Assembly (NCBI GenBank): GCA_016215705.1
Contig: JACRIR010000172.1
Span: 1 to 23,954, forward strand
Length of the DNA: 23,954 nt
Source: Candidatus Poribacteria bacterium
Lineage (GTDB): Bacteria; Abyssobacteria; SURF-5
Direction of reading: 5' to 3'
Positions 11,515 to 23,954 of the stretch are shown here, piece after piece. The notes under the pieces were generated by a model. It was not told the origin of the DNA, did no database searches, and worked only from the letters and a program-made list of their open reading frames with translations. The position numbers were made by a program, and so were the translations under genes. Every line of letters starts with the position of its first letter. Within the stretch, counting starts at the first letter, position 1.

Positions 11515-11539
11515 AGATTGAGCCCCCAAAAATTGCCAT
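11504..11539 (-). other. Possible 11-codon upstream ORF overlapping the rpoB start
   Basis: An ATG at 11537-11539 opens an 11-codon frame ([11 protein letters not shown]) that stops at TAA (11504-11506), just inside rpoB and in a different frame. Its first codons ATG GCA ATT are the same as those of rpoB, because the start region is duplicated (see the 25-bp repeat). It could couple or modulate rpoB translation, or be an accident of the duplication. No independent ribosome binding site is obvious. Confidence 0.25.
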
Positions 11540-11549
11540 AAGTTGAGCC
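11506..11549. repeat. 25-bp-period tandem duplication across the rpoB start site
   Basis: The 19-nt segment at 11506-11524 (AATTGCCATA, GA, TTGAGCC) recurs at 11531-11549 with AG in place of GA; the offset is 25 bp and 17 of 19 bases match. One copy contains the true rpoB ATG, the other the start of a short out-of-frame ORF. Confidence 0.8.
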
Positions 11550-11573
11550 TTCAAAATGGATTGGTTGTGTGAT

Positions 11574-11594
11574 TGTGGGAATACCCATCCCACA
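11574..11594 (-). promoter_or_regulatory. Stem-loop in the rpoB 5' leader
   Basis: TGTGGGA (11574-11580) and TCCCACA (11588-11594) form a perfect 7-bp stem with a 7-nt loop. Nearby GTGTG (11566-11570) could compete for the CACAC side. It lies in the roughly 130-nt leader between the rpoB promoter and its ATG. There is no U-tract, so it is more likely a regulatory or stabilising structure than a terminator. Confidence 0.45.
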
Positions 11595-11652
11595 CTAGGA
11601 CATAGTTGGAGTAAGGATCATAAGATTAAGTTGATGGATTACGCAAAATATA

Positions 11653-11681
11653 ATTATATCTCGCATATGAGAATATGTCAA
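11653..11681 (-). promoter_or_regulatory. Consensus sigma70-type promoter for rpoBC
   Basis: On the minus strand: TTGACA (11676-11681), 17-nt spacer, TATAAT (11653-11658), a perfect match to the housekeeping consensus. The predicted start is near 11646, giving a leader of about 130 nt. It explains how rpoB is expressed without an upstream rplJ-rplL operon. Confidence 0.88.
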
Positions 11682-12093
11682 GAACTTTTTTTCAACCAAA
11701 ATCCGATCCCTCCACTTTTCTTATCTAATCTCTTTCATACCAACTACTTATCTCCTTCACACAAACTAACTCCACGCTCTCTCTCGAGAGTCATCACCTG
11801 GTTCTCGACCTCTTGCTGCCGACATGAGAAGCGCGTCGCACGCCAGTCAACTTACGCCTGAACATTCGTTCCGGGAGAGGCCACCGACCCTTCACACTTA
11901 TGTAACAGCGGCCGAAATCGAACCGAATTACACTATCTTAAGAATATGCACTTTCGAATGTCTCCTTGGCAAGAATCGTCTAAGCAGTGAAGCCGCCATG
12001 CGGCGAATTCAAAACACATTGAATTGCGTATTGATGCGATCGGCACAACTATATTTTGAGGAGAGAGGGGCCGGCTTCCCCCATTTTCGTTCT

Positions 12094-12122
12094 TTGACAC
12101 TCACACTCACGTGTGTTAGAAT
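12094..12122 (+). promoter_or_regulatory. Consensus-like sigma70 promoter for the GspE/PilB-like ATPase operon
   Basis: TTGACA (12094-12099), 17-nt spacer, TAGAAT (12117-12122): a perfect -35 and a five-of-six -10. The expected start is near 12129, leaving a roughly 130-nt leader that carries the heptad array before the ATG at 12262. Confidence 0.75.
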
Positions 12123-12182
12123 AAATTTGAAGTTGCAGGTGCGAATTCAACCTGAGATTTGAATGCTTTTTGTATTCCTGCA

Positions 12183-12238
12183 ACCGTGAACCGTGAACCG
12201 TAGACCGTAGACCGTAGACCGTGAACCATAGACCATAG
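12183..12238. repeat. Heptad array: 8 units of a 7-nt degenerate repeat
   Basis: Eight consecutive 7-mers, read as ACCGTGA, ACCGTGA, ACCGTAG (three times), ACCGTGA, ACCATAG, ACCATAG, with strict 7-nt spacing. They lie in the predicted 5' leader of the ATPase operon, 23 bp before its ATG. The same consensus (RACYRTR when rotated) recurs at 19584-19646. Confidence 0.9.
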
Positions 12239-12261
12239 CCCCACTTGGGAGAGACCACATT

Positions 12262-13563
12262 ATGGCGATGCCGGACAGGAAACTTGAGCTTTCCGAGATT
12301 CAAAGGCTTCTGATCCACAGACTCGTGAACGAGAATGCGGAGATAAGTGAGGTCGTGGACGTCGTCATAGAGCAGGGAACACGGCACAAGGCAAGTGACA
12401 TACACTTCGAGGCGTACAAAGACATCTTAAGAATCCGGTATCGGATCGATGGGTTCTTCCGCGACGTGCTCATTCTGCCGGCTGAACACCACGACAGGAT
12501 TATCGCTCGCCTTAAAGTTATGGCAAACTTGAATGCGCACGAGAAGAACCAGCCACAGGACGGAAGAATCTCGATGGACGTGGGCAACAAGCGCGTCGAT
12601 TTCAGAATAAGCACGGTTCCCACTGTCACGGGTGAGAAGGCTGTCGTAAGGGTATTCGACTCGACACGGTTTGTGTTTGATCTTGACAAATTAGGGATGT
12701 ATCCGGAAATCCAGAAGCGGTTCGAGCAAGTGTTGTTGGGGCTTCAAGGCTCAATAATAGTTGCCGGCCCGACAGGCAGCGGGAAGACCACCACTCTTTA
12801 CGCGGCTTTGCAGAAGCTGGCCAAATTGAAGAGCGACTGCGCCAGCATCATAACCATCGAGGACCCCGTTGAAGTGAACTTCGGGATTTTTCCGCAGATG
12901 GAGATAAGGAAAAAGCTGGGACTCACGTTTGCAGATTGCTTGAGGGCGGTGCTGAGACAGGACCCCGAAGCTATCATGGTCGGCGAGATTCGGGACCCGG
13001 AAACGTGCGAAATAGCGATGCGGGCAGGCTTGACCGGTCACCTGGTGCTGACAACGGTTCACAGCGGGACGGCGGCGGAAGTGATAACGAGAGTTCTCGA
13101 TATGGGTATCGAGCCGTTCATCGTGGCATCGTCGATAACGGCGGTAATCGCGCAAAGACTCGTTCGCTTGATTTGTCCGAAGTGTAAAGTCGCCTACGAG
13201 GCGCCGGAATACATGGCTGACGCGCTCGAGAAATGGTTCGGCGACAGCAAGGTTCGACTGATCAAGGGGGCCGGCTGTAATCGCTGTAACCATGTGGGGT
13301 ACTATGGCCGCACCGCAATCTCCGAGCTTCTCGTGATGGGAGACAAACTTCGAAGCGCGATTGCGGCAAAGGCCAGCACAAATGAATTGCACAAGACGGC
13401 GCGTGCGGAAGGCATGGTGCCGCTATTTCGAGATGGTCTCCGCAAAGTTCGCGACGGATACACCACGATGGAAGAGGTGATCCGCGCTCTTGGAGCGGAA
13501 GACTATTTGAGACAGGAAAAAAGCTTTCAAGGAGAATCTTCTGAAAGGAGTGGAGCGAAATGA
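12262..13563 (+). CDS. GspE/PilB-family secretion or pilus ATPase, short form
   Basis: A 433-residue hexameric-type ATPase of the type II secretion / type IV pilus assembly family. It has the Walker A motif GPTGSGKT (169-176), Asp box IITIEDPVE (196-204), Walker B region AIMVGEIRD (237-245) and His box TGHLVLTTVHSGT (258-270). A zinc-type tetracysteine site (C305, C308, C339, C342) is also present. The N-terminal MshEN/T2SSE_N domain of full-length GspE or PilB (usually over 550 residues) is missing; only the N2-type and catalytic domains remain. The ATG at 12262 has GGGAGA at about 12247; ATG 12268 is possible. The stop overlaps the next gene's ATG (ATGA). No gspF, pilin or secretin lies nearby, so its machine is unknown. 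Confidence 0.9.
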   Translation: MAMPDRKLELSEIQRLLIHRLVNENAEISEVVDVVIEQGTRHKASDIHFEAYKDILRIRYRIDGFFRDVLILPAEHHDRIIARLKVMANLNAHEKNQPQDGRISMDVGNKRVDFRISTVPTVTGEKAVVRVFDSTRFVFDLDKLGMYPEIQKRFEQVLLGLQGSIIVAGPTGSGKTTTLYAALQKLAKLKSDCASIITIEDPVEVNFGIFPQMEIRKKLGLTFADCLRAVLRQDPEAIMVGEIRDPETCEIAMRAGLTGHLVLTTVHSGTAAEVITRVLDMGIEPFIVASSITAVIAQRLVRLICPKCKVAYEAPEYMADALEKWFGDSKVRLIKGAGCNRCNHVGYYGRTAISELLVMGDKLRSAIAAKASTNELHKTARAEGMVPLFRDGLRKVRDGYTTMEEVIRALGAEDYLRQEKSFQGESSERSGAK

Positions 13564-13787
13564 AAAGGACTTTGACGTTCCTGGCCGTCGCGCTCCTGCT
13601 TGCATTCGTTGTCGTTAGTTGCACTACAACGGAGAAAGGCGCCGTTGTCGGAGGCGCGCTGGGAGCAGGAACAGGAGCAATCATCGGCCATCAAACAGGT
13701 AGTACTGCCGGGGGAGCCCTCATCGGCGGCGCAGTCGGCGCAGTCGGCGGCGGCCTCATCGGCCATGAGATAGACGAAAGCAAGTAG
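13560..13787 (+). CDS. Small glycine-zipper lipoprotein (copy 1)
   Basis: 75 residues. A signal peptide (MKRTLTFLAVALLL...) ends in a lipobox VVSC, so Cys21 is the predicted lipidation site. The rest is a glycine-zipper segment (GAVVGGALGAGTGAIIGHQT, then GGALIGGAVGAVGGGLIGHE), the pattern seen in SlyB/OmpA-like and YMGG-type envelope lipoproteins, whose small residues pack helices in or on membranes. The ATG overlaps the stop of the upstream ATPase gene (ATGA), indicating translational coupling. It is a close paralogue of the next gene but lacks that gene's C-terminal extension. Function is unknown; an outer-membrane or periplasm-facing role is inferred. Confidence 0.8.
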   Translation: MKRTLTFLAVALLLAFVVVSCTTTEKGAVVGGALGAGTGAIIGHQTGSTAGGALIGGAVGAVGGGLIGHEIDESK

Positions 13788-13824
13788 TGTCATGTCACAG
13801 AGTCCCCCAAGGAGGGAAATGATA

Positions 13825-14268
13825 ATGAATAAAAAGTTGGCTCTGGCCGCAACCGCTTTGCTTCTGGGAGTCGCGCTCATGGGTTGCACAACCACAGAGA
13901 AAGGCGCGATCGCAGGAGGCGCGATAGGAGCAGGAACAGGAGCAATCATCGGCCATCAAACAGGTCGTGGAGGTGAAGGAGCCCTCATCGGCGGCGCCGT
14001 CGGCGCAGTCAGCGGCGGCCTCATCGGCCATGAGATAGACAAGAGCCGCGAGCAGCAACAGCCGCCCGCGTCTTATTCGGCGACTCCGCCTCCCGCACCG
14101 CCTGCCTCCAGCACGGGCCAGTATTCCGGCGGCGGTGACTATTACGAAGGAGAACGCGACACCCAGGGTCGCAAGTGGGTGCCCGAGCACTATGAGTACC
14201 GCACCTACACGGCGACTGATGGCTCGACTTATCAGAAACAAGTCCTGGTCCCCGGACATTACGAATAA
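13825..14268 (+). CDS. Glycine-zipper lipoprotein with C-terminal WVPxHY-type tail (copy 2)
   Basis: 147 residues from the ATG at 13825, chosen because AAGGAGG (13809-13815) is 9 nt upstream; the in-frame ATG at 13819 is too close to it. A signal peptide ends in LMGC with lipidation at Cys21. The glycine-zipper region is nearly the same as in the preceding gene, at DNA level too. It is followed by a Pro/Ser/Gly-rich linker (about residues 78-108) and a Tyr-rich tail with WVPEHYEYRTY and VLVPGHYE, resembling the repeated WVPGHW-type motif of some envelope proteins. Probably an outer-membrane-associated lipoprotein from a tandem duplication followed by gain or loss of the tail. Role unknown. 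Confidence 0.8.
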   Translation: MNKKLALAATALLLGVALMGCTTTEKGAIAGGAIGAGTGAIIGHQTGRGGEGALIGGAVGAVSGGLIGHEIDKSREQQQPPASYSATPPPAPPASSTGQYSGGGDYYEGERDTQGRKWVPEHYEYRTYTATDGSTYQKQVLVPGHYE

Positions 14269-14283
14269 GTCCGCGAGAAAACG

Positions 14284-14313
14284 GGGACAGACCCGTTTCA
14301 GAGAGTCTGTCCC
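14284..14313. repeat. REP-like hairpin GGGACAGAC ... GTCTGTCCC
   Basis: A perfect 9-bp inverted repeat (14284-14292 and 14305-14313) with a 12-nt loop lies between the lipoprotein gene and mazG. The arms resemble the GGGACAGAC-type palindromes that are dispersed in many bacterial genomes. It may serve as an RNA 3'-end stabiliser; no T-run follows, so intrinsic termination is unlikely. Confidence 0.6.
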
Positions 14314-14345
14314 TGGTTTCCCTCGCCTTTCTCTTCGGAGCGCTC

Positions 14346-15173
14346 ATGACTGACCCACCAACCCCTCCAAGCGCGGCGACCGCGAGCGTATGCGCCGCGC
14401 TCTACGATTTGGCGCGTCATCTTCGCAGCGAACGCGGATGTCCCTGGGATCGAACGCAAAACCTCGAAAGCATGCACAAATACGTGCGTGAAGAGGCGGA
14501 CGAGCTCGGAGAATCAATCAGAAAAAACGACCCGGCCGGAATCCTGGAAGAGTGGGGTGATGTCTTCTTCATCCTCTTGATGCTCGGAGTCATCGCTGAA
14601 GAGGCCGGTCAATTCACGATCTATGAGGCGATGCGCCTCGTCGAAGCCAAGATGATACGCCGCCACCCCCACGTCTTCGGAAACAGTACGGTGAGCGCCG
14701 TCGAAGACGTCATTGCGCAGTGGGACAAGATCAAATCGCAGGAAAAAAAAGAAGAACCCAAATCGCTCATGGACCGCGACTCCTCATCCGGGTCGGCCCT
14801 CGAGCGCGCGGACCACGTGCAGAAAATTGCCGCCGACGTCGGCTTCGACTGGCCCACCCGCGATGGAATACTCGAGAAAATCAAAGAGGAAATGGCGGAA
14901 TTACACGATGCGTTTGCCGCCGGCGACCCGCATGGAACAGGCGACGAACTTGGCGATTTGCTCTTTTCGTGCGTGAACCTGGCCAGATTTGTTAGAATGG
15001 ACGCGGAAAAGCTGCTTGGCGCAGCCACCGATAAGTTCATCGAGCGGTTCAAGTACATAGAGTCCGAACTCGGCCGCGTCGGCAAGACCCCGCGCGAAGC
15101 GACCCTGGCCGAGATGGACGCGCTGTGGGAGCAGGCAAAGAAATGTGACAAAGGGATTGGGGAAAAAGGCTGA
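14346..15173 (+). CDS. mazG: Nucleoside triphosphate pyrophosphohydrolase MazG
   Basis: 275 residues with two all-alpha MazG domains, as in the E. coli-type enzyme. Domain 1 starts at the conserved CPWDRTQNLESMHKYVREEA; its metal-binding ExxE/ExxD set includes E49, E50 and E53 and then E69 and D72 (EEWGD). Domain 2 repeats the pattern (KEEMAEL at about 180-186, DELGD at 200-204). A hydrophilic, Lys/Glu/Ser-rich linker (about 130-155) joins them. MazG hydrolyses NTPs and dNTPs to NMP plus pyrophosphate, is thought to remove aberrant nucleotides, and affects (p)ppGpp levels in E. coli. The ATG at 14346 has CGGAG about 5-9 nt upstream. The gene follows the REP-like hairpin and precedes the threonine aldolase by 51 nt; no mazEF toxin genes are nearby. 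Confidence 0.93.
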   Translation: MTDPPTPPSAATASVCAALYDLARHLRSERGCPWDRTQNLESMHKYVREEADELGESIRKNDPAGILEEWGDVFFILLMLGVIAEEAGQFTIYEAMRLVEAKMIRRHPHVFGNSTVSAVEDVIAQWDKIKSQEKKEEPKSLMDRDSSSGSALERADHVQKIAADVGFDWPTRDGILEKIKEEMAELHDAFAAGDPHGTGDELGDLLFSCVNLARFVRMDAEKLLGAATDKFIERFKYIESELGRVGKTPREATLAEMDALWEQAKKCDKGIGEKG

Positions 15174-15224
15174 ACATTTCTCAGGCATGATATGGTAACA
15201 GTCAAGAGGACAGGATAAACATTA

Positions 15225-16271
15225 ATGACCAGAATGATTGATCTTCGCAGTGACACCGTAACTAAGCCTTCGCCGGGTATGAGACAGGCGATTTTCAATG
15301 CGGAAGTCGGAGACGACGTTCACGGGGAAGACCCGACTGTAAACAGGCTCCAGGAACGCGTCGCCGCCATGCTCGGGAAAGAGGCCTCGCTGTTCGTGCC
15401 GTCCGGCACAATGGCTAACCAGGTGGCTCTGCTCGCGCACACACGACATGGCGACGAGGTGATCCTCGAGCGCGGATCGCACCTCTTTTATTATGAAGCG
15501 GGCGGACTCGCGGCGGTGGCGGGCGTTCAACCATTCCTTCTTGACGGCCGGCGTGGAATCATCGAGGCGGAACAGGTGGAACAGTCAATCAGGTTTGCCG
15601 ACGTTCACTTGCCGCCAACGAGACTGATCTGGATAGAGAACACCCACAATCGCGGCGGCGGAACGGTGTTCCCGCTCGAAAAACTTAGGGCAATAAGGAG
15701 CGTATCTCTGAACTATTCTATTCCACTGCACATGGATGGAGCCCGCCTGTTCAACGCGTGCGTCGCAGCCGACGTGCCGCCGGAGGAGTATAGCCGGCAG
15801 GTGGATTCGCTCAATTTCTGCTTCTCGAAGGGACTCGGCGCGCCGGTCGGCTCGATAATCGCAGGCAGCGCCGAATTCATCACGCGCGCGCATCGCTATC
15901 GCAAAATGCTCGGCGGCGGCATGAGACAAGTGGGCATCCTCGCGGCTGCGGCCCTCTATGCGCTCGACCACAATATCGAGAGACTCGCGGAAGACCATAA
16001 GAACGCAAAACGCCTGGCCGGTGCGCTCGCCGAACTCGACGGCGTGAAAGTGGTCAACGATCCGGTCGAGACAAACCTCGTTTATTTCGATGTCTCCCGA
16101 ACCGGAATGAATACGCTCGAGCTTAAGAGCGAGTCGGCTGAACGCGGATTGCTGGTGGACCCGATTTCGTTCACCACCATGCGCGCGGTAACGCATCTGG
16201 ATGTTTCCGCCGACGACATCGAACGCGCCATCGAGGTCTTCCGGACAATATTCAAGCGCCCCGGGAAATAA
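15225..16271 (+). CDS. ltaE: Low-specificity L-threonine aldolase
   Basis: 348 residues, fold-type I PLP enzyme. It cleaves L-threonine or L-allo-threonine to glycine and acetaldehyde. The N-terminal [16 protein letters not shown] and [15 protein letters not shown] motifs are diagnostic, as is [17 protein letters not shown] is at 169-174, with the Asp that contacts the PLP ring nitrogen. The Schiff-base lysine is K202 in [13 protein letters not shown]. Length is normal. The start at 15225 is chosen over the ATG at 15234 because a purine-rich AGGACAGGATAA precedes it; the alternative differs by only three residues. It may be co-transcribed with mazG (51-nt gap) but no metabolic link is evident. 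The related phenylserine or beta-hydroxyaspartate aldolases are possible alternatives. Confidence 0.92.
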
Positions 16272-16287
16272 CGTATCCACTGCCGTC

Positions 16288-16315
16288 GTGCGTTCATGGT
16301 TTGTGGTTTATGATT
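16288..16315. repeat. Heptad array on the minus strand (4 units)
   Basis: Read on the minus strand from 16315 the units are AATCATA, AACCACA, AACCATG, AACGCAC: the same AACC-based 7-nt family as at 12183 and 19584, but in the opposite orientation and more degenerate. Confidence 0.6.
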
Positions 16316-16452
16316 GAAACAACTCAGGGCTGGTAGAGTCAAGTGTATCTGTAAATTTTTCTTTTCATTGGTTGTTTCTTCTTTTTTTTTCTGCAGTTTC
16401 CTCTTCCCCTTTCCCTGTTCATTGTTCATTCGTAATTCGTCCCGCGCCTTGT

Positions 16453-16471
16453 GTCCCGCCTTTCGCGGGAC
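16453..16471. repeat. Hairpin GTCCCGC-CTTTC-GCGGGAC
   Basis: Perfect 7-bp stem (16453-16459 and 16465-16471) with a 5-nt loop. The core CGCGAAAG-type word on the opposite strand is like the hairpins at 19499 and 21256, so it is probably a member of the same dispersed family. Confidence 0.55.
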
Positions 16472-16520
16472 GACATCCGTGTTCCCGGAATTTCTTCTTC
16501 TTTCTTGGTTTTTCTCATCC

Positions 16521-16548
16521 ATAAACCCTGAACCCGAAACTCCGAACC
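16521..16548. repeat. Heptad array (4 units)
   Basis: Units ATAAACC, CTGAACC, CGAAACT, CCGAACC keep a strict 7-nt period with the common core RAAC. A GC hairpin follows immediately at 16549. Confidence 0.6.
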
Positions 16549-16565
16549 CCGCGCGCTTCGCGCGG
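16549..16565. repeat. GC hairpin CCGCGCG-CTT-CGCGCGG
   Basis: 7-bp perfect stem with a 3-nt loop. The core CGCGCGCTTCGCGCG also occurs at 23584-23598, so it is a dispersed element of this genome. Confidence 0.6.
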
Positions 16566-16580
16566 CCCCTTTCGCCTTCT

Positions 16581-16619
16581 TTTCGTTCTGGCCCTACATT
16601 TCGTTCTGGCCCTACATTT
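16581..16619. repeat. 18-bp perfect tandem repeat
   Basis: The unit TTTCGTTCTGGCCCTACA is present twice in a row (16581-16598, 16599-16616) and followed by a further TTT. It lies in non-coding spacer. Confidence 0.85.
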
Positions 16620-16701
16620 GCCTAAACGACCGCATTTATGCAAGATTATGTAAGGTAAGCGAGAAAACATTTCAAGGACACAGGCCCGTCGTTTCCAAGC
16701 T

Positions 16702-16741
16702 GGAACTTGAAACCTGAAACGATTGACCCGAAACCGGTTTC
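16702..16741. repeat. Heptad array ending in a 12-bp palindrome
   Basis: Units GGAACTT, GAAACCT, GAAACGA, TTGACCC, GAAACCG keep 7-nt phase (16702-16736). The last unit forms part of the perfect palindrome GAAACCGGTTTC (16730-16741), 140 bp before the Crp/Fnr-family gene, so an operator role is conceivable but unproven. Confidence 0.5.
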
Positions 16742-16754
16742 TTGGGAGCGCTTG

Positions 16755-16772
16755 ACCACGCCACGGCGTGGT
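16755..16772. repeat. Near-palindrome ACCACGCC-AC-GGCGTGGT
   Basis: An 8-bp perfect inverted repeat (16755-16762 and 16765-16772) separated by 2 nt, upstream of the Crp/Fnr-family gene. It could be a dimeric-protein binding site or a REP remnant. There is no direct evidence for either. Confidence 0.4.
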
Positions 16773-16881
16773 TAGTTGTGGAAGAAAGGTAAAGCGTGGG
16801 AATTAGAGACGATTTTTCTCTTTTTTTCCGGATTCTCCTCGTCTTGTTCCTTTCGTTTTTCCCCTTTCTTAGGAGAGGAAC

Positions 16882-17592
16882 ATGGACCCAAAGAAGATCG
16901 ATCTATTGAGAAAGATCGACGTTTTTGGGGAGTTGACCGACAGGCGCCTCCACCAGATTCTGCCTCTCATCTCGTACCACCGTTTCTCCGAAAAGCAGGT
17001 AATATACATGCCCTCCGACCCGCGCGCCCGCCTCTACGCCATTCTCAGCGGGCGGGTCAAGCTTACCCAGGTCTCCCCTGAGGGCAAAGAACTCGTGCTC
17101 TGTGTCCTGGGCAAGGGCGACGTGTTCGGGGAGCTTTGCCTGTTTGATAAGGGTCCGCACAGCACGCTCGCCACGGCGCTCGAAGACGCCGAGATTTTTT
17201 CCGTCAAATGCTCGGACCTCGCGAAGTTCATGGCGGAAGACGCTGCCGTGGTCACTGCGCTGGGAAAACATGTGGGTGAAAGGCTGCGGACACTCGAACA
17301 GAAACTCTCCGACTTTGCTTTCAAGGACGTTGCGCAGAGGCTCGCCAGCCTGATCGTCGACCTCGCGCACGACTACGGAGAGAAGAAGACCTCCGGCGAA
17401 CACGTGATCGAAATGAAGATAACTCATCAAGACCTCGCCGGCCTTATCGGTTCCACCCGCGAGACCACGACAACAACCTTGAACCAATTCAGAGAAAAAG
17501 GATTGATTGAGTTCAAGAGAGGAAGTATAATTGTAAAGGATATCCAGCGACTCGAATCGCTTGCAAACGGCCATGTGAAGGAAACAACATAG
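16882..17592 (+). CDS. Crp/Fnr-family transcriptional regulator
   Basis: 236 residues. A cyclic-nucleotide-binding-type beta-roll spans about residues 12-120, with SGRVKLTQVSPEGKELVL and GKGDVFGELCLFD, the latter typical of the phosphate-binding cassette. A long dimerisation helix follows (about 122-160). The C-terminal winged helix-turn-helix is at about 178-220 (MKITHQDLAGLIGSTRETTTTTL). No N-terminal cysteine cluster is present (cysteines only at 74, 86 and 110), so an Fnr-type [4Fe-4S] oxygen sensor is unlikely. The ligand is unknown. The ATG at 16882 has AGGAG at 16871-16875, 6 nt upstream. The gene is alone after a 610-bp repeat-rich spacer. Oddly, the last 14 codons and stop are duplicated just downstream. 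Its targets cannot be told from the window. Confidence 0.92.
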   Translation: MDPKKIDLLRKIDVFGELTDRRLHQILPLISYHRFSEKQVIYMPSDPRARLYAILSGRVKLTQVSPEGKELVLCVLGKGDVFGELCLFDKGPHSTLATALEDAEIFSVKCSDLAKFMAEDAAVVTALGKHVGERLRTLEQKLSDFAFKDVAQRLASLIVDLAHDYGEKKTSGEHVIEMKITHQDLAGLIGSTRETTTTTLNQFREKGLIEFKRGSIIVKDIQRLESLANGHVKETT

Positions 17593-17637
17593 GGGCGCGA
17601 TTCACTCGCGAACGAGCATGTGAAGGAAACAGTGTAG
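17548..17637. repeat. 45-bp tandem duplication of the regulator gene's 3' end
   Basis: The final codons SLANGHVKETT-stop (stop at 17590-17592) are followed in the same frame, 45 bp later, by SLANEHVKETV-stop (stop at 17635-17637). CATGTGAAGGAAACA is identical in both copies (starting at 17572 and 17617). The duplication preserves frame and a stop at both ends. Confidence 0.85.
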
Positions 17638-17787
17638 GGGCTCAATTCATTGCGCCCTTGCCGGTGCGAATTGATCCGCACCCGGCGCTCAAAGGAAATT
17701 TTTTCTTCGTGTAATTCCTCGCCTTGCGCGATTCGTGATCCGCAGCTTCTTCTTTGCGGGTCAGATTCTTTTTCCCGGACGGCAGCA
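17593..17787. other. 195-bp spacer after the regulator gene
   Basis: It holds the second copy of the duplicated 3' end (to 17637), a 6-bp stem-loop (GGTGCG 17663-17668 with CGCACC 17677-17682), a short T-run at about 17699-17704 and a copy of the ATTCGTG/TTCTTCTT word (about 17722-17756). The stem and T-run are too far apart for a confident terminator. Confidence 0.5.
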
Positions 17788-18033
17788 ATGGAGAATGCAA
17801 AAGAAAAACCCTTCATATGGGTGAACAAAAAATGGTGCAAGCGGTGCGGACTCTGCAAAGAGTTCTGCCCGCGAGAAGTCTTCACGATTGACAAAGAAGG
17901 CTATCCGCATCCGGAAAACATAGACCGTTGCGTGCGCTGCGGACTCTGTGTGATCCAGTGCCCCGACTACGCCATAGTGGATGACGAGGAAGCAAAGCGG
18001 AAAGTCATCGAGGAATACATCCTGGATGAATAA
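17788..18033 (+). CDS. Two-[4Fe-4S] ferredoxin, KorD/OorD-like
   Basis: 81 residues from the ATG at 17788. The frame is open further upstream to 17650, but that part has no ferredoxin similarity and lies in repeat-like spacer. Two CxxCxxCxxxCP motifs (Cys 17, 20, 23, 27 and 48, 51, 54, 58) bind two [4Fe-4S] clusters. The order WVNKKWCKRCGLCKEFCP, then HPENIDRCVRCGLCVIQCPD, resembles the delta (ferredoxin-like) subunit of 2-oxoacid:ferredoxin oxidoreductases. No alpha, beta or gamma subunit genes are adjacent, so it may be a free electron carrier. It precedes the DUF3786 gene by 30 nt, probably as an operon. No clear ribosome binding site precedes the chosen ATG. Confidence 0.85.
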   Translation: MENAKEKPFIWVNKKWCKRCGLCKEFCPREVFTIDKEGYPHPENIDRCVRCGLCVIQCPDYAIVDDEEAKRKVIEEYILDE

Positions 18034-18063
18034 TTCGGACCACGAATCACGTGGACGGAACAA

Positions 18064-18690
18064 ATGACACCACAAAACACATACGATGAAGCCCGCACCC
18101 TCGCGTGGGACCGGCTGTCGAAGTGCGATCCGGCAAAAGTCGCCTCGGACGGACTCGTGAATCTCAACCATTCCAGCGAACGGCTCATCGTTTCGTTCCT
18201 CGCCGACAACTACCTGGTGGACATTCAATCACAAAAGGTCCTTTTCGAGAATGGGGCCGAACTGTTTCCGTTCCTGTCCGTCCTGATACTCCACTATCTT
18301 GTCGGAATCGATGAGACTCCGCTCGCAAACGAATGGATTTCGTTCCGCGAGTTCGACGGCGGCAACGTCTATTTCGGCTCGTTCAATGACCGCAGCCTGA
18401 CACCTCTCAAAAACGCATTCGGCAACCAGCCCGACGTGCTTCCGCTGGCCGCTGGACCGCTTGGAGCCAATTCGCTCGACTTCGGCGATGTCGGCGTGCG
18501 CATTCCCGTGTTTCCGAAACTGCCGCTGGCAGTAGTCCTGTGGCGCGGCGACTCCGAGTTCCCGCCCGACGCCAACATCCTCTACGACAAAACGGCCAAT
18601 AAAATCCTGCGCACTGAAGACCTCGCCATCTGCGGCGCGCTGACGGTCAGCAAACTCCGCAAAAACGCCGAGAAACTGAAAAAGGGGTGA
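18064..18690 (+). CDS. DUF3786-family protein
   Basis: 208 residues, cytosolic, no signal peptide or membrane segment. The pattern ILHYLVGIDETPLANEWISF, the FGNQPDVLPLAA segment, DFGDVGVRIPVFPKLPLAVV and WRGDSEFPPDANILYD are what I recall for DUF3786, a family found mainly in anaerobic bacteria and archaea, often near or fused to Fe-S proteins. No biochemical function is established to my knowledge. It directly follows the two-cluster ferredoxin, which fits a redox context. There are no conserved cysteines that would suggest its own cluster. The ATG at 18064 has only a weak upstream GGAAC. Family assignment is from memory of conserved motifs and should be tested by profile search. Confidence 0.75.
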   Translation: MTPQNTYDEARTLAWDRLSKCDPAKVASDGLVNLNHSSERLIVSFLADNYLVDIQSQKVLFENGAELFPFLSVLILHYLVGIDETPLANEWISFREFDGGNVYFGSFNDRSLTPLKNAFGNQPDVLPLAAGPLGANSLDFGDVGVRIPVFPKLPLAVVLWRGDSEFPPDANILYDKTANKILRTEDLAICGALTVSKLRKNAEKLKKG

Positions 18691-18751
18691 ATCCGCAGTA
18701 TCACGCCAGCTCGCGCAGCACGGCATAGCCGCAGCCGAAGAGAAAGAGGGA

Positions 18752-18951
18752 ATCCGCAGGTTTCGCAGATTTGCACAGATCCAGGGAAGATGATGATGAT
18801 GATGAAAGAAAAGAAAAAGAAGACTAAAGAAGAGAAGACATCGGCAACCACGGAGCGCACGGAGAACATGGAGAAAGAGCAAATCTCCGTGACCTCGGTG
18901 ATCTCCGTGAATAAGTTCTTGAATCAGTGAGAATCTGCGAAATCTGCGGAT
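18752..18951. repeat. Nested palindrome with 9-nt-period arms
   Basis: The outer arms 18752-18771 and 18932-18951 are inverted copies matching at 19 of 20 bases (right arm: AATCTGCGA AATCTGCGG AT). The inner arms 18849-18873 and 18885-18909 are inverted copies at 19 of 25 bases with an 11-nt loop (right arm built on CTCCGTGAC-like 9-mers). Each arm is internally periodic at 9 nt. Between the left arms is an (ATG)5 and A/G-rich stretch. Confidence 0.85.
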
Positions 18952-18962
18952 AAGAAAAGGAC

Positions 18963-19066
18963 TCATTCGTGATTCGTCGCATTCGTGTTCCAAGCTTCTT
19001 CTTCTCCATTCGTGACATTCGCTTTTTCATTCGTGATATTCGTGTTCCCAGTTTCTTCTTTTCTTG
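18963..19066. repeat. ATTCGTG / TTCTTCTT direct repeats
   Basis: ATTCGTGTTCC followed by AGCTTCTTCTT or AGTTTCTTCTT occurs twice (about 18980 and 19038). Each copy is preceded by 9-nt-spaced ATTCGTG words. A related copy sits before the ferredoxin gene (about 17722-17756). Confidence 0.7.
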
Positions 19067-19096
19067 ATTCCGTGTTCTTAGATAAGGAGACCCGCA

Positions 19097-19321
19097 ATGA
19101 CGCACGACAACGTAAGCAAGTTCGGAAAAGTAACCGGCAAAGAAACCATCGACAACAAAGAACTCGAGGCCGCCCTTCGCGCGCGCGCAAAAGAAAACAG
19201 AATCACCTGCGCCGAGATGTTCGCAATCGCCGAAAAACTCAAGCTCCCCCGCAAAGAAGTCGGCAACGCTGCGACCGAGCTCAAAATCAGAATCCACAAC
19301 TGCCAACTCGGCTGCTTCTAG
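19097..19321 (+). CDS. Small Cys-containing HTH-like protein ending in CQLGCF
   Basis: 74 residues with an excellent ribosome binding site (AAGGAG 19084-19089, 7 nt before the ATG), so it is very likely translated. The N-terminal 30 residues are charged. Residues 36-65 (ITCAEMFAIAEKLKLPRKEV, then GNAATELKIRI) look like a helix-turn-helix or small helical domain. The protein ends in NCQLGCF, and the three cysteines (C38, C69, C73) could bind a metal or form disulfides. I have a loose memory of short proteins with this CQLGCF ending in other anaerobes but cannot name a family. It stands alone: 406 bp of repeats before it and about 350 bp after. Function unknown; regulator or metal-binding protein are possibilities. 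Confidence 0.7.
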   Translation: MTHDNVSKFGKVTGKETIDNKELEAALRARAKENRITCAEMFAIAEKLKLPRKEVGNAATELKIRIHNCQLGCF

Positions 19322-19371
19322 ACTGGTGCGCCGTCAAGACAAAATTTAAGAGTATTGGCGCTTAGTTCTTC

Positions 19372-19399
19372 GTAGGGGCACGGCGCGCCGTGCCCCTAC
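19372..19399. repeat. Perfect 28-bp palindrome (REP-like)
   Basis: Half-site GTAGGGGCACGGCG followed directly by its exact reverse complement. The GTAGGGGC...GCCCCTAC outline is like mobile REP-type elements dispersed in many bacterial genomes. It has no loop, so as DNA it could form a cruciform. Confidence 0.8.
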
Positions 19400-19498
19400 A
19401 AATACCGACAAGACAAACTTGACCTGACCCTGGCTCAACTATGAATTCCCTGCCCAGTCGGGACACGATTTGAAAGGAGTTTCTTCTCTTTTTGTGAC

Positions 19499-19512
19499 CC
19501 CGCGAAAGCGGG
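19499..19512. repeat. Hairpin CCCGC-GAAA-GCGGG (dispersed family)
   Basis: A 5-bp stem closed by a GAAA tetraloop, followed by AATCCA. The same word with one arm mutation is at 21256-21269, and its inverted relative is at 16453. Hairpins of the form CCCGCGAAAGCGGGAATCC are common intergenic repeats in diverse bacteria. Confidence 0.7.
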
Positions 19513-19583
19513 AATCCATGTTCTTAGCAGAGGAGGCGGTCGGGCGACACCCCCTGACGACCCCCGGCCCACTCATAAATTCA

Positions 19584-19646
19584 AACCGTAAACCGTAGAC
19601 CATAGACCATAAACCATGAACTATGAACTATGAACTATGAACCAAT
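19584..19646. repeat. Heptad array: 9 units of the AACCRTR family
   Basis: Nine consecutive units in strict 7-nt phase: AACCGTA (2), GACCATA (2, with the first as GACCATA after GTA), AACCATG, AACTATG (3), AACCAAT. It is the same family as at 12183-12238 and likewise ends just before a gene start. Confidence 0.9.
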
Positions 19647-19674
19647 CTTCCCGGTGCGTGAGGTGAACAACAAG

Positions 19675-21180
19675 ATGGGCGAAAGCAGAATTCCGGTTAT
19701 CGTGGGAGTAGGCCAATTCACCAACAAACCCTCCGAAATCGAACATGCCATAGAACCATTCGAGATGATCAAAGTCTGCATCGCACGCGCAACGGAGGAT
19801 ACGAACGCAAAGCCATTCTTGCATATGGCCGACTCCATCCGCGTGGTCGGCATCTTCTCATGGCATTACGCTGACATCCCTTCGATGATTGCTGAACATG
19901 TTGGCGCAAGACCACGGGAGCAAATCTATACGAATACCGGAGGCAACAATCCGCAATTCATGATCAACGAAATCGCCCGGGAAATTGCCGAAGGCAGGTC
20001 CGGCATTTCTCTTCTTTGCGGCGGCGAGGCGCTTCATTCGAGATACCTCTCAAGAAAACTCGGCAAGCCGCTGCCCTGGCCACAGTATTCCGGCGTCCCT
20101 CAGATTTATGGGGAAGAGACAGGTGGTTCAAACGAAATTGAACTCCAGCACGGCTTGCGCTTGCCCATCCACGCTTTCCCGCTATTCGAGAATGCATTAA
20201 GAGAAGAAGAAGATGGCCTCTCCATCGAGGAGAACGTTGAGCAAACGGCCCGAATGTGTTCCGCTTTTGCGAATGTCGCGCGGTCGAATCCTCACGCATG
20301 GTTCAGAGACGGCAAGAGCGTCGGGCAAATCAAGACCATCACGCCTTCCAACCGGATGGTCTGCTTTCCATATCCCAAATATATGAACTCGATCTGGAAC
20401 GTTGACATGGCTTCTGCAATCATTATTACGAGTGCGGCAACTGCGCGGAAGCTGGGAATCCCCGAGGAAAAGTGGGTTTTCATTCATGGAGCAGGAGACT
20501 GCACCGATGCATGGTATCCCACCGAAAAACTCAACTACCACAGCATCCCGGGAATACGTCTGGCCGCCGATTATGCTCTGATTCAGGCAGGCGTCGCGAT
20601 TGACGATGTCGAGGTATTCGACCTCTACAGTTGTTTCCCATGCGTTCCCAAGATGGCGAAGAAGATGATGGGGATAAAGACGACGGATTGGGGCGCCTTG
20701 ACCGTCACCGGAGGACTCCCCTATTTCGGAGGACCCGGCAACAACTATTCTTCGCATGCCGTCTGCTCTTTAGTCGAACGCCTGAGAAAAGAGCCTGGAA
20801 AATTCGGCCTGACTTATGCGACAGGCTGGTACTTCGCCAAACATGCGGTCGGAATCTACAGCGCGAGACCAAAAGAAACCGAATTCGGAACTGTCAATTG
20901 TGAGCAGATACGCCGCGAGATCGCGAATCTACCATATCCGCCTTTCATCCTCAAGGCAGAGGGCGAAGCCACTCTCGAAACCTTCACCGTGGTTCATAAC
21001 CATGATGGTCAGCCGGATTATGCCATCATCATCGGCCGCCAGAACGACGGGCGACGCTTCATCGCGAACACCGAGAGAGACCCATCCCTCTTCCAATTCT
21101 TGACCACCCGCGATGTCATCGGCCTGAAAGGCAAAGTAAAATACTCGCCCGACCTAGAAATTAATATCTTCGCGCCATGA
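19675..21180 (+). CDS. Thiolase-like protein, type 1 (TLP1 family)
   Basis: 501 residues from the ATG at 19675, chosen because GAGGTG (19660-19665) is 9 nt upstream and the protein then begins GESRIPVIVGVGQ as thiolases do. An in-frame ATG at 19630 lies within the heptad repeat and is rejected. A thiolase-like fold covers about 1-410; a C-terminal OB-like extension (about 425-495, with ETFTVVHNHDGQPDYAIIIG and DGRRFIANT) is as I recall for TLP1-type proteins. The place of the nucleophilic Cys loop reads TNTGGNNPQ (86-94) with no Cys, and later motifs are DLYSCFP (316-322) and GGPGNNYSSHA (352-362). Acyl-CoA binding is likely, but normal Cys-dependent thiolysis is doubtful. Often annotated acetyl-CoA acetyltransferase. 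Confidence 0.8.
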   Translation: MGESRIPVIVGVGQFTNKPSEIEHAIEPFEMIKVCIARATEDTNAKPFLHMADSIRVVGIFSWHYADIPSMIAEHVGARPREQIYTNTGGNNPQFMINEIAREIAEGRSGISLLCGGEALHSRYLSRKLGKPLPWPQYSGVPQIYGEETGGSNEIELQHGLRLPIHAFPLFENALREEEDGLSIEENVEQTARMCSAFANVARSNPHAWFRDGKSVGQIKTITPSNRMVCFPYPKYMNSIWNVDMASAIIITSAATARKLGIPEEKWVFIHGAGDCTDAWYPTEKLNYHSIPGIRLAADYALIQAGVAIDDVEVFDLYSCFPCVPKMAKKMMGIKTTDWGALTVTGGLPYFGGPGNNYSSHAVCSLVERLRKEPGKFGLTYATGWYFAKHAVGIYSARPKETEFGTVNCEQIRREIANLPYPPFILKAEGEATLETFTVVHNHDGQPDYAIIIGRQNDGRRFIANTERDPSLFQFLTTRDVIGLKGKVKYSPDLEINIFAP

Positions 21181-21250
21181 AGATGGCCCCAACAAGCCCC
21201 AGAAACCAGAACCTCGCGCCGTCCTCCTTCACGGTTGATGCTCCTTCTTG

Positions 21251-21276
21251 TCATTCCCGCGAAAGCAGGAATCCAT
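21251..21276. repeat. Decayed copy of the CCCGC-GAAA-GCGGG hairpin repeat
   Basis: TCATTCCCGCGAAAGCAGGA followed by ATCCAT. One arm base differs (GCAGG for GCGGG) from the intact copy at 19499, and the flanking AATCCAT is shared. Confidence 0.65.
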
Positions 21277-21332
21277 TCCTCGCTCTCTTTGCGCCTCGGA
21301 CTTGTGCCCTTCGCGATTCGCCTCTTCTTCTC

Positions 21333-21353
21333 AATCCGAAATCCGAAATAGGA
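21333..21353. repeat. Short heptad run (3 units)
   Basis: AATCCGA, AATCCGA, AATAGGA in 7-nt phase. Weak alone, but it matches the period of the longer arrays in this window. Confidence 0.5.
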
Positions 21354-21384
21354 ACATCCGCGTCCATCGATATGGCTGAGCTTG

Positions 21385-21427
21385 GGAAAATCGGGGGCAT
21401 GATGCCTCATCGTGTCCCCGATTTTCC
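21385..21427. repeat. Hairpin with perfect 12-bp stem (GGAAAATCGGGG)
   Basis: GGAAAATCGGGG (21385-21396) and its exact reverse complement (21416-21427) flank a 19-nt loop that contains a small GGCAT/TGCC stem. Flanking ATCCG and CGGAT words extend an imperfect outer stem. It is a REP-like element; no terminal T-run in either useful position. Confidence 0.7.
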
Positions 21428-21678
21428 ACTGAAATGTCGATACGGATGACTCCGCGCCCTTTGCCGTTCGCTTCTACTTCTTCATCGTTTGCTTTCCGGG
21501 AAACCATTCCTTCTCTGCGAATCTCCTTTTCTTTGCTGATTCTCTCATTGCGCCCTTTGCGCCTCGGGACTGCGGCCCTTTGCGGTGAAAGAAGGCTTGT
21601 CTTGGACAGCGGCGATGAGTATCTGTACTCTTGCCGAGTAAGCGTGAAATGCAGATTCCACCTGATGAGACAAGCATG

Positions 21679-21706
21679 GTGACAATAATCGGGCGCTTGT
21701 GATACT
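21679..21706 (+). promoter_or_regulatory. Candidate promoter for the R-M genes
   Basis: GTGACA (21679-21684), 16-nt spacer, GATACT (21701-21706), with a TG one base before the -10. The match is moderate and it is about 55 bp before the methyltransferase ATG. It is the best candidate in this spacer but not certain. Confidence 0.35.
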
Positions 21707-21761
21707 ATGACATGGCAATGGACCTCAAAATAGCCTGTCCCTCTGAAAGAGAGAGCGAAAC

Positions 21762-22835
21762 ATGGCAAAAGAGCCAATACCAAGAATTGATTGTGATGAG
21801 CAGGTTCGCGCGCAACTTCTCCCACATTGTCGTTTGAAATACGGAGATGTCTGGGAAGACACCCGTTCCGGCCATAGAGTGGGCTGTCTCGACGCCTCCA
21901 ATGCAAGCGATTTCATCAAACTGGTCGGTGACAAGAAAGCCGCACTTGCGATTCAAGACCCGCCTTACAATGTTGTCGTGGGAAACGCGAATTCACATGC
22001 CTTGGGAAAGATTTCGGTGCAATCGTATCTGCCCTGGAGCAGAATGTGGGTACAAAACACACTCAGGGCATTGGCAAACAATTCACATCTGTACGTCTGG
22101 ATGGGTGCGGATCAGAACGAAGGGTTTCAGCCCCTGCCTGAGTTCATGATCATGATGAGGGAGTTCAAAGACTTACGGTCCCGAAGCTTCATAACAATGA
22201 GGAATCAACGAGGATACGGCACGCAGAAAAACTGGATGGCGGTCAGGCAAGAGCTTTTGTACTACGTCAAAGGTCATCCCGATTTTAATGTTGATGCGGA
22301 GTACACGGAAATTCCAAAAATCTTGAGAGGCTATTATAAGAGAGTCAATGGCAAGGTAACAGAGAACTTGGAGCGCAGCAAATCTGAAAACATACGGGCA
22401 GGCAACGTTTGGGTTGACATTCAACAAGTATTCTACAGAATGGAAGAAAACGTGCCGGGATGTTACGCCCAAAAGCCGCTCAAGGCAATTGAAAGAATCA
22501 TATCTGCCTCCACCCAAAAGTCCGATTTGATCGTTGATTTCTTCTCTCATAGCGGCGCCACACTGCTCGGCTCCGAAATACTGAACCGGCGCTGCTTTAC
22601 CGCCGACATTGATCCGATTTTTGCGGAAATCACCATAAGAAGAGTGGAGCGCTTCAGGAAGACGGGGGAAACCGGCTGGCAGTTCAAGAATCCATTTCCT
22701 GAAGTGGGTGTCAAGTGGGAAAATGGGGACGAGCAAGAGAGAGAGTCCGCTAAGCAAAGCGTTTCGTCACAAGGAACGCTGTTTGATGATTTGGGGGCTG
22801 CTGGACAAAGCAAAGGGCCTGCATGGAGAAGCTGA
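21762..22835 (+). CDS. Site-specific DNA methyltransferase, beta-class (N6-adenine or N4-cytosine)
   Basis: 357 residues. The catalytic motif IV DPPYNV is at 66-71 and the S-adenosylmethionine-binding motif I (VDFFSHSGATLLGSE) at about 258-272. With the catalytic motif first and motif I last, and about 190 residues including the target-recognition part between, the order is that of beta-class amino-methyltransferases. DPPY suits adenine-N6 or cytosine-N4 methylation. After motif I comes CFTADIDPIFAEITIRR, also typical of this class. The C-terminal 50 residues are polar. The ATG at 21762 has purine-rich GAGAGAGCG upstream. The gene overlaps the endonuclease gene by 13 nt, the usual type II R-M pairing. 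Codon use appears more A/T- and AGA-rich than in the neighbours, consistent with transfer. Confidence 0.9.
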   Translation: MAKEPIPRIDCDEQVRAQLLPHCRLKYGDVWEDTRSGHRVGCLDASNASDFIKLVGDKKAALAIQDPPYNVVVGNANSHALGKISVQSYLPWSRMWVQNTLRALANNSHLYVWMGADQNEGFQPLPEFMIMMREFKDLRSRSFITMRNQRGYGTQKNWMAVRQELLYYVKGHPDFNVDAEYTEIPKILRGYYKRVNGKVTENLERSKSENIRAGNVWVDIQQVFYRMEENVPGCYAQKPLKAIERIISASTQKSDLIVDFFSHSGATLLGSEILNRRCFTADIDPIFAEITIRRVERFRKTGETGWQFKNPFPEVGVKWENGDEQERESAKQSVSSQGTLFDDLGAAGQSKGPAWRS

Positions 22836-23572
22836 AGAAAGAACTGGACAAGTTGATCGAGAAGCTGGAGAATGCCGATGATTTCCGTTTAATCTTGGAA
22901 AGGCTCATATCGGTCTATCCGTTCAGTGAGTATGAATACGTCATCTCTCATCTGCTTGCGGCCCGCAAGCTCACGCTCGACGAATATCACGACCTGAGAA
23001 TCTCGTACATAGATAGAAATCTGTATCTGTACATATTCGAAATCTCTGCGCCGAGAGGTTTCGGCGACAAATGGGCATTCGGTCATCTGAAGGAACTCGT
23101 CCCGGAATTTCAACGGCCTTCCAAGAAACTCGATCCAAAGTATTCAGGAGAATATGACTTCTGGTTGGATTTGTCCGATAAGGGGAATAAATCTTATGGA
23201 ATTCGGATAGAGATCAAAACTTCGAGGGCCGTTGACTACGAGAGACCCGACGAACCTCTCTATATCAAAGCGTTGCCTTCGGATTCCGATCGGCCGTTCG
23301 ACATGAACTTCCAACAGATCAAAACAAAATGCGCAGATGTATTTCTCTGGATCGCGGTGTGGCGAGACAAAATCCGGTATTGGGTCTTGTGTTCCGACGA
23401 AGTTCAGAACAACAAGTATTTCTCGAAAAGACAGCACCGTGGAAATGTCGGCGAAGGACAGTTGCATTTCAACCGCGAGAATATATTTGAGTTCGATCGG
23501 TATGAGGTAAAATCCACACGAATCAAGAACGCAGTGGTCGAGGCGTATAAGAGACAGAAAGAGATAGGATGA
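22823..23572 (+). CDS. Probable type II restriction endonuclease, PD-(D/E)XK type
   Basis: 249 residues. It starts inside the methyltransferase gene (13-nt overlap), so translation is probably coupled. The N-terminal 45 residues form predicted charged helices. A likely PD-(D/E)XK core is D112 in GEYDFWLDL and E130-x-K132 in IRIEIKTSRAV, with a strand pattern between them. Downstream, DVFLWIAVWRDKIRYWVL fits core strands after the ExK motif. I do not recognise the specificity or a named isoschizomer family. The pairing with a methyltransferase is the main support; the protein would cleave the unmethylated form of the site that enzyme protects. Base composition is AT-richer than the left half. 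A solitary nuclease-like protein of other role is less likely. Confidence 0.75.
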   Translation: MEKLKKELDKLIEKLENADDFRLILERLISVYPFSEYEYVISHLLAARKLTLDEYHDLRISYIDRNLYLYIFEISAPRGFGDKWAFGHLKELVPEFQRPSKKLDPKYSGEYDFWLDLSDKGNKSYGIRIEIKTSRAVDYERPDEPLYIKALPSDSDRPFDMNFQQIKTKCADVFLWIAVWRDKIRYWVLCSDEVQNNKYFSKRQHRGNVGEGQLHFNRENIFEFDRYEVKSTRIKNAVVEAYKRQKEIG

Positions 23573-23583
23573 TGGTCGGTTTC

Positions 23584-23598
23584 CGCGCGCTTCGCGCG
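23584..23598. repeat. GC hairpin CGCGCG-CTT-CGCGCG
   Basis: 6-bp perfect stem with a CTT loop; same core as the hairpin at 16549-16565. Confidence 0.6.
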
Positions 23599-23623
23599 AC
23601 GCGGTCTAGGACATTCCCATTGT

Positions 23624-23648
23624 TGTCATTGCGAGCGAAGCGAAGCAG
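23624..23648. repeat. CATTGCGAGCGAAGCGAAGC-type dispersed repeat
   Basis: The word CATTGCGAGCGAAGCGAAGC is a frequently dispersed intergenic element in many genomes, as I recall. Only one copy is in the window, so its dispersal here cannot be shown. Confidence 0.5.
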
Positions 23649-23745
23649 TTTTTTCAGAAAAAGCAGGCGGGGGTTACCAATGGGGGCAATTCTCGCTGGA
23701 TTCCGCCATGCGCGATACGAACAACGCCGACCATACAAGGATAGG

Positions 23746-23954
23746 ATGATGCGACATTCAATGTTGGACAATCCGGAGATGTCTCTCGAAAAAGAAATTA
23801 AACGATTTGTGGCTGAGAATGAGGCCAATCGTTTCACTATGATAGACAACTCGCCAATGTTCGATGAACCACTGATCGGCTTCGCAGATGGCGATGACGA
23901 GATATTCGACACATACAAGGAGGTAGTAGGTGATTTTCACTGGAAGCCCAGGGA
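23746..23954 (+). CDS. N-terminus of a possible epoxyqueuosine-reductase-like Fe-S protein (partial)
   Basis: An open frame from the ATG at 23746 runs off the right edge; about 69 residues are visible. Three in-frame ATGs (23746, 23749, 23761) could be the start; AAGGAT at 23738 suits one of the first two, and a longer start at 23680 would enter spacer repeats. The segment includes PMFDEPLIGFADGDDEIFDT, then YKEVVGDFHWKPR, which I recall as the usual N-terminus of epoxyqueuosine-reductase-like 4Fe-4S proteins in anaerobes (FDEPLVGFA..., IGPFHxTPRE). The cysteine clusters that would confirm this lie outside the window. If correct, it is another Fe-S redox protein in this neighbourhood. Confidence 0.5.
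   Translation, partial: MMRHSMLDNPEMSLEKEIKRFVAENEANRFTMIDNSPMFDEPLIGFADGDDEIFDTYKEVVGDFHWKPR

Follow-up and report, generated by a model that had tools for sequence, protein, structure and literature searches.

The question raised by this locus is what a nested 200-bp palindrome, every arm of which is built from words of about nine nucleotides, is doing between two protein genes. The palindrome lies at positions 18752-18951 of contig JACRIR010000172.1 (assembly GCA_016215705.1, deposited as Candidatus Poribacteria bacterium), whose 23,954 nucleotides we refer to as the window. The source genome is placed in the candidate phylum Abyssobacteria because a second genome, G001 (Ca. Abyssobacteria bacterium SURF_17), belongs to the same family. 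We conclude that the palindrome is probably a gene-less, nested pair of ends of GxxExxY elements, from a family of small insertion elements that has two classes of gene and period. We read it in this way because the word of its outer arms is that of an element at C174, where it brackets a GxxExxY gene (PF13366, PD-(D/E)XK nuclease fold), and the word of its inner arms is that of an element at C261, where it brackets another GxxExxY gene.

The anatomy of the palindrome was reproduced as a sequence-only reading had described it. The outer arms match at 19 of 20 positions (18752-18771 and 18932-18951) and at 84% over 32 nt (18752-18783 and 18920-18951), the inner arms match at 19 of 25 (18849-18873 and 18885-18909), and the period of the arms is imperfect at 9, now and then 10, with period 9 detected at 18883-18910 in a periodicity scan. 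The same reading had suggested a folded RNA, and RNA of 18740-18965 is indeed predicted to fold at -82.1 kcal/mol (z -8.7) into two nested stems; the fold of the single-stranded DNA has a z of -6.9, with its stems likewise nested. Across 1.28 Mb of the genome there are 147 ungapped inverted repeats within 900 bp that score 16 or more, compared to 0 in shuffled sequence, and the window's outer pair scores 17. No Rfam family matches at gathering thresholds across 11400-23954, and the window spacer has no match among plasmids.

The words belong to a large stock. The outer 17-mer AATCTGCGNAATCTGCG, with up to 2 mismatches, has 109 copies in the genome versus 2 for a reversed control, which rules out a repeat that arose de novo in the window only and bears out the expectation that other spacers with a 9-nt period would be found. 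When 30 of these copies were examined in full, the spacers proved to be patchworks of stock phrases, among them the words CGCAGATTT, CACGGATTT, CACGGAG, CACGAATG and CGCAAAGG, together with purine-rich linkers, 7-nt arrays and tight hairpins. Outside the arms, read as left arms, the mean purine fraction is 0.64.

The connection between words and genes is seen first in the source genome, in which all five GxxExxY genes with both sides on the contig are bracketed within tens of bases by inverted word arms, the remaining words being CACGGGGAA at C176, CACGAATG at C40 and CGCCGATGAA at C47. A sixth gene, at C40:39144, lies between arms of the CACGGATT type, the right-hand one in several copies, and the three clear cases of a four-helix-bundle gene stand between 7-nt words, GGCGAAA, ATGATGA and GGTTTGG. 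We extended this to 98 genomes of about 96 families, of which 25 contain PF13366 and 36 contain PF05635, the four-helix-bundle family. Aligning each 350-bp left flank to the inverted right flank and counting scores of 14.5 or more as positive, we find inverted arms at 36 of 47 GxxExxY genes and 37 of 49 four-helix-bundle genes, versus 2.6% of 926 control open reading frames (ORFs) of the source genome. A period of 8-10 nt fits the arms best in 33 of the 36 GxxExxY elements (mode 9), and one of 7 nt in 29 of the 37 four-helix-bundle elements, a difference between gene families with a Fisher p of 1.1e-10. When every left flank was compared with all right flanks, its best partner was its own for 27 of 47 GxxExxY and 38 of 49 four-helix-bundle genes, where chance predicts about 1; different elements therefore carry different words, while the two ends of any one element agree. 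The word CGCAGATT is high-copy (3 or more) in 8 of the 98 genomes, all of which carry GxxExxY (p = 7e-6). GxxExxY genes with arms also occur in Bacteroides, Gemmatirosa, Lentisphaerales, Epilithonimonas and a Methanothrix archaeon, and four-helix-bundle genes with arms on plasmids of Nostoc, Calothrix, Trichormus and Riemerella; no GxxExxY was found among phages.

With these genes and words in hand, the features of the window can be given as follows.

18752-18783, + strand: outer left arm, words ATCCGCAGG-TTTCGCAGA-TTTGCACAGATCCA of the CGCAGATTT type, the word that brackets the C174 gene.
18920-18951, - strand: outer right arm, AATCTGCGAAATCTGCGGAT, the inverted partner of the outer left arm, with an orthologous arm in the same position in G001.
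18849-18873, + strand: inner left arm, CACGGAGCG-CACGGAGAA-CATGGAG, the word that brackets the C261 gene.
18885-18909, - strand: inner right arm, CTCCGTGAC-CTCGGTGAT-CTCCGTG, period 9.
18784-18846, + strand: purine-rich linker from outer to inner left arm, free of genes.
18690-18698, + strand: remnant left word AATCCGCAG, adjoining the DUF3786 stop codon; G001 has an intact left arm at this position.
18712-18751, + strand: stock phrase GCACGGCATAGCCGCAGCCGAAG..., directly before the outer arm; its relatives CGCGGCGCAGCCGCAACCAAA stand ahead of many copies.
18964-18988, - strand: CACGAAT-type right arm, for which no left partner was found nearby.
19007-19046, - strand: second CACGAAT-type right arm, in tandem, with a pyrimidine tract after it.
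18064-18690, + strand: host gene for a DUF3786 protein, flanking the element and outside it.
19097-19321, + strand: host gene of 74 aa, flanking the element, without a family match; in G002 it lies 44 bp from the upstream gene.
19583-19644, + strand: gene-less 7-nt array AACCATGAACTATG, a word array of the four-helix-bundle type by its period.
12182-12238, + strand: 7-nt array AACCGTAGACCGTG, of the same class by its period.

The word array thus continues past 18951, with more CACGAAT right-hand arms up to about 19046. Tandem runs of three to four right arms are also seen elsewhere (L125 1890-2080, where pyrimidine tracts separate them, and L084 19530-19743). The 7-nt arrays (AACCATG / AACCGTA) stand in other spacers of the window, at 12182-12238, 16516-16534 and 19583-19644, and by the period rule they are probably ends of four-helix-bundle-type elements without a gene. 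The 9-nt palindrome and the 7-nt arrays had been proposed to reflect one general process; they do belong to one broad phenomenon, though as two classes with different genes.

Comparison of related sites reveals that the elements insert as units. A ~460-bp arm-GxxExxY-arm insertion separates fabD from fabG in Sphingomonas parapaucimobilis, S. paeninsulae has a 31-bp spacer at the same site, and in other alphaproteobacteria the match there is ~460 bp shorter. The 432-bp element at C47 has a counterpart of 78% identity in G001 and G002; the similarity stops at the arm ends, and the contexts differ. At the window site itself, G001, which represents a related genus, has the outer pair in the same position, enclosing different arms. 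The pairing of this outer pair is preserved through one compensated change: both arms have TTCCGCAG as their second word in G001, and both have TTTCGCAG in the window. Apparently one intergenic site in two genera (L035, G000 C174; L125, G001 C100) holds different GxxExxY elements with different words, which suggests a hot spot or turnover. In G010 (L291-L294), four-helix-bundle genes form divergent pairs, each with a hairpin at its centre and 7-nt words on the outside; these pairs look like head-to-head inverted dimers of the element. Two other candidate cases were set aside: a radical-SAM gene at C56, considered as the empty site of the L121/L122 element, is not syntenic, and the twin plasmids of Calothrix, considered as a case of transposition, have flanks that are conserved as well.

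Elements also lose their genes by deletion. A gene-less 7-nt palindrome at C193 keeps its arms and the first 31 codons of a four-helix-bundle gene, and the full version of its element is located 3.4 kb away. In G088, a deleted GxxExxY element of 228-230 bp that retains the last third of the gene is present in two unrelated places (L285 on C64, L286 on C67) at 96% identity, each copy with a perfect 8-bp target duplication (ATCAACAG, GGCATCCT). Because extra outer ends GTAAATACTCACTGA are present, we read this derivative as a transposon-type miniature inverted-repeat transposable element (MITE), presumably of the IS66 type, that captured a word element, and take it as no proof of movement by word elements themselves.

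The GxxExxY protein has the features of a PD-(D/E)XK nuclease. Invariant E25, D64, E74, K76 and Q88 form the catalytic pattern, and an alpha-beta(3)-alpha-beta core carries the conserved E, D, ExK and Q. The predicted structure (predicted local distance difference test score, pLDDT, 92) has its best PDB match in 4ic1 (Z 9.3, 96 residues, root-mean-square deviation 3.2), the Cas4 protein SSO0001. The Holliday-junction resolvase Hjc is next in the fold ranking (Z 7.0), which may reflect only a common arrangement. The four-helix-bundle protein has homologues in 2gsc and 2rld, crystal entries with five chains each, and the protein of X. campestris has been described as a toroidal homopentamer (PMC4990558).

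Three other explanations were weighed against the evidence above. The words could be stem-loops selected by the host as RNA or DNA (terminators, RNase III sites or mRNA stabilisers), with the short period incidental and the bracketed genes as passengers. The strong fold (z -8.7) agrees with this, as do the excision of 23S intervening sequences by RNase III (PMC4990558) and the intergenic bias of the arms, 29% of which (five clean word families) lie inside ORFs of at least 150 aa, compared to the 80% of the sample that such ORFs make up. However, stem-loops of the host do not explain why, across phyla, one gene family should go with 7 nt and the other with 9 nt, why identical words recur in unrelated families, or why single operons are interrupted in one species only, and we consider this explanation unlikely. 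Mobilisation of hairpins by Y1 transposases, as in repetitive extragenic palindromic (REP) sequences and their REP-associated tyrosine transposases (RAYTs), would draw on the three Y1_Tnp genes of the source genome and on its tight hairpin families, yet the arms here are spaced short-period arrays around GxxExxY and four-helix-bundle genes rather than tight single hairpins; this origin is very improbable. The high-copy tight hairpin families themselves (GGGGACACGATGCGGCATCGTGTCCCC, GTCATTCTGAGCGAAGCGAAGAATCT, GTAGGGGCGCGATTCATCGCGCCC and GTAGGGGCACGGCGCGCCGTGCCCCTAC, in the genome sample L041-L120 and in the window at 19372-19399 and 21385-21427) do look REP-like.

The third explanation, along the lines of the sequence-only reading, is that the short words of the spacers arise de novo, made and mirrored by slippage or hairpin-templated inversion. 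In agreement with this, the two ends of an element are each other's best match, tandem arms are common, and word number changes, as one of two near-identical GxxExxY elements of G046 (L289 and L290) has one more AACGCCGAGA word in its left arm than the other. The words, however, are common to distant families, are tied to two gene families, and in one case persist as a conserved outer pair in two genera, so that de novo writing is improbable, more so than stem-loops of the host. What stands of that reading is the structure, the abundance of the words and the kept pairing; the writing of words de novo is not supported in the form given there, since the words are stock sequences that also form the ends of gene-bearing elements, both in the source genome and in distant phyla. 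A templated mechanism may still keep the ends of an element alike, because an element's own ends match each other better than they match those of other elements.

Several observations weigh against our reading of the palindrome as gene-less ends of GxxExxY elements. Its interior (18784-18919) contains neither an ORF nor a recognisable remnant of a gene, which leaves the words as the basis of its assignment. In G002 the window site is a 44-bp spacer without words, which could represent loss rather than a site before insertion. The word elements contain no transposase, and target duplications outside the arms are not in excess among 72 gene-bearing elements relative to shuffled pairs. About a quarter of the surveyed GxxExxY and four-helix-bundle genes have no detectable arms, and the source genome has 6 GxxExxY genes for more than 100 arms. 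In the five clean word families, 322 of 365 arms have no opposite arm of the same type within 700 bp; many copies are solo or tandem, and a simple paired element does not explain them. Neighbours of the same family within 700 bp are left-left in 53 cases, right-right in 26, left-right in 20 and right-left in 6, and neighbouring arms of different families share their orientation in 55 cases versus 18. The excess of solo and tandem arms could stem from decay or from recombination between arms, or the unit may be smaller than a pair. Nor does strict nesting hold for all arms, as a loose scan, many hits of which are cross-hits between similar templates, returned 27 nested, 9 side by side and 8 interleaved.

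In our preferred reading, these are insertion elements of ~400-600 bp, each with one short gene between inverted arms of 2-5 imperfect word copies. The words are of 8-10 nt in the GxxExxY class and of 7 nt in the class that encodes the four-helix-bundle protein known from 23S rRNA intervening sequences, and internal deletion leaves gene-less palindromes behind. In the window, an element of the CGCAGATTT type would have entered between the DUF3786 gene and the small gene, with a CACGGAG-type element inside it and CACGAAT-type ends beside it. We hypothesize that the protein made by an element recognises the arms through the fixed period of their words and promotes insertion, and that it may act in trans on copies without a gene. 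A ring of four-helix bundles would, in what seems the natural reading, contact the repeated 7-nt register, and the GxxExxY nuclease could plausibly act where the arms form a DNA hairpin or junction. The palindrome of the window would then be a passive copy, retained as harmless between genes.

Among the closest known systems is the intervening sequence (IVS) of Coxiella 23S rRNA, in which an S23p-type gene lies between complementary ends that form a 28-bp stem inside an existing hairpin (PMC4990558). Like the IVS (S23p, PF05635), the elements of the 7-nt class are small, with one four-helix-bundle gene and complementary, stem-forming ends, and the window palindrome likewise has complementary ends that form a long stem in the predicted RNA. 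Unlike the IVS, the word elements are intergenic, their ends consist of short-period words, and they include a second class with GxxExxY and 9-nt words as well as nested gene-less copies; the window palindrome lies between two protein genes rather than in a 23S rRNA helix, with no rRNA match across 11400-23954. The heptameric repeats GGGAATC and GGGGA(T/C)T of Xanthomonas and Nostoc, with ~70 convergent inverted pairs per Xanthomonas genome (PMC4692102), also resemble the word elements in their 7-nt arrays and inverted pairs. X. campestris is also the source of the solved four-helix-bundle protein XCC0516 (2gsc), and four-helix-bundle genes of Nostoc plasmids are flanked by 7-nt words. In contrast, the window feature is of the 9-nt class, and PMC4692102 ties its repeats to no gene. 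The TAACTGA repeats of Beggiatoaceae, found mostly upstream of starts and proposed to be regulatory (PMC4679880), are 7-nt words spread through spacers as well, but unlike word arms they are mostly direct. Gene-less inverted-repeat elements derived by internal deletion are also the hallmark of MITEs, from which the word elements differ in lacking transposase-type ends and general target duplication, and in having short-period arrays private to each element. In open-access full texts we found no paper linking GxxExxY or four-helix-bundle genes with inverted repeats of short period; an earlier description in subscription journals is possible.

It is tempting, if still tentative, to generalise to a class of transposase-free mobile elements, in which DNA between word arrays is moved or maintained by a single small protein that fits their period, either a Cas4-like nuclease or a pentameric helix bundle, and a copying step keeps the ends alike. 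Such a class would include the rRNA intervening sequences and might be the source of many stock repeats found between genes in bacteria and archaea. On a practical level, spacers rich in these words can give spurious gene calls. The functionality and origin of rRNA intervening sequences have been called unclear (PMC4990558), and the link between gene and period merges this origin with two further puzzles, the roles of the two proteins and the nature of the 7- and 9-nt intergenic repeats.
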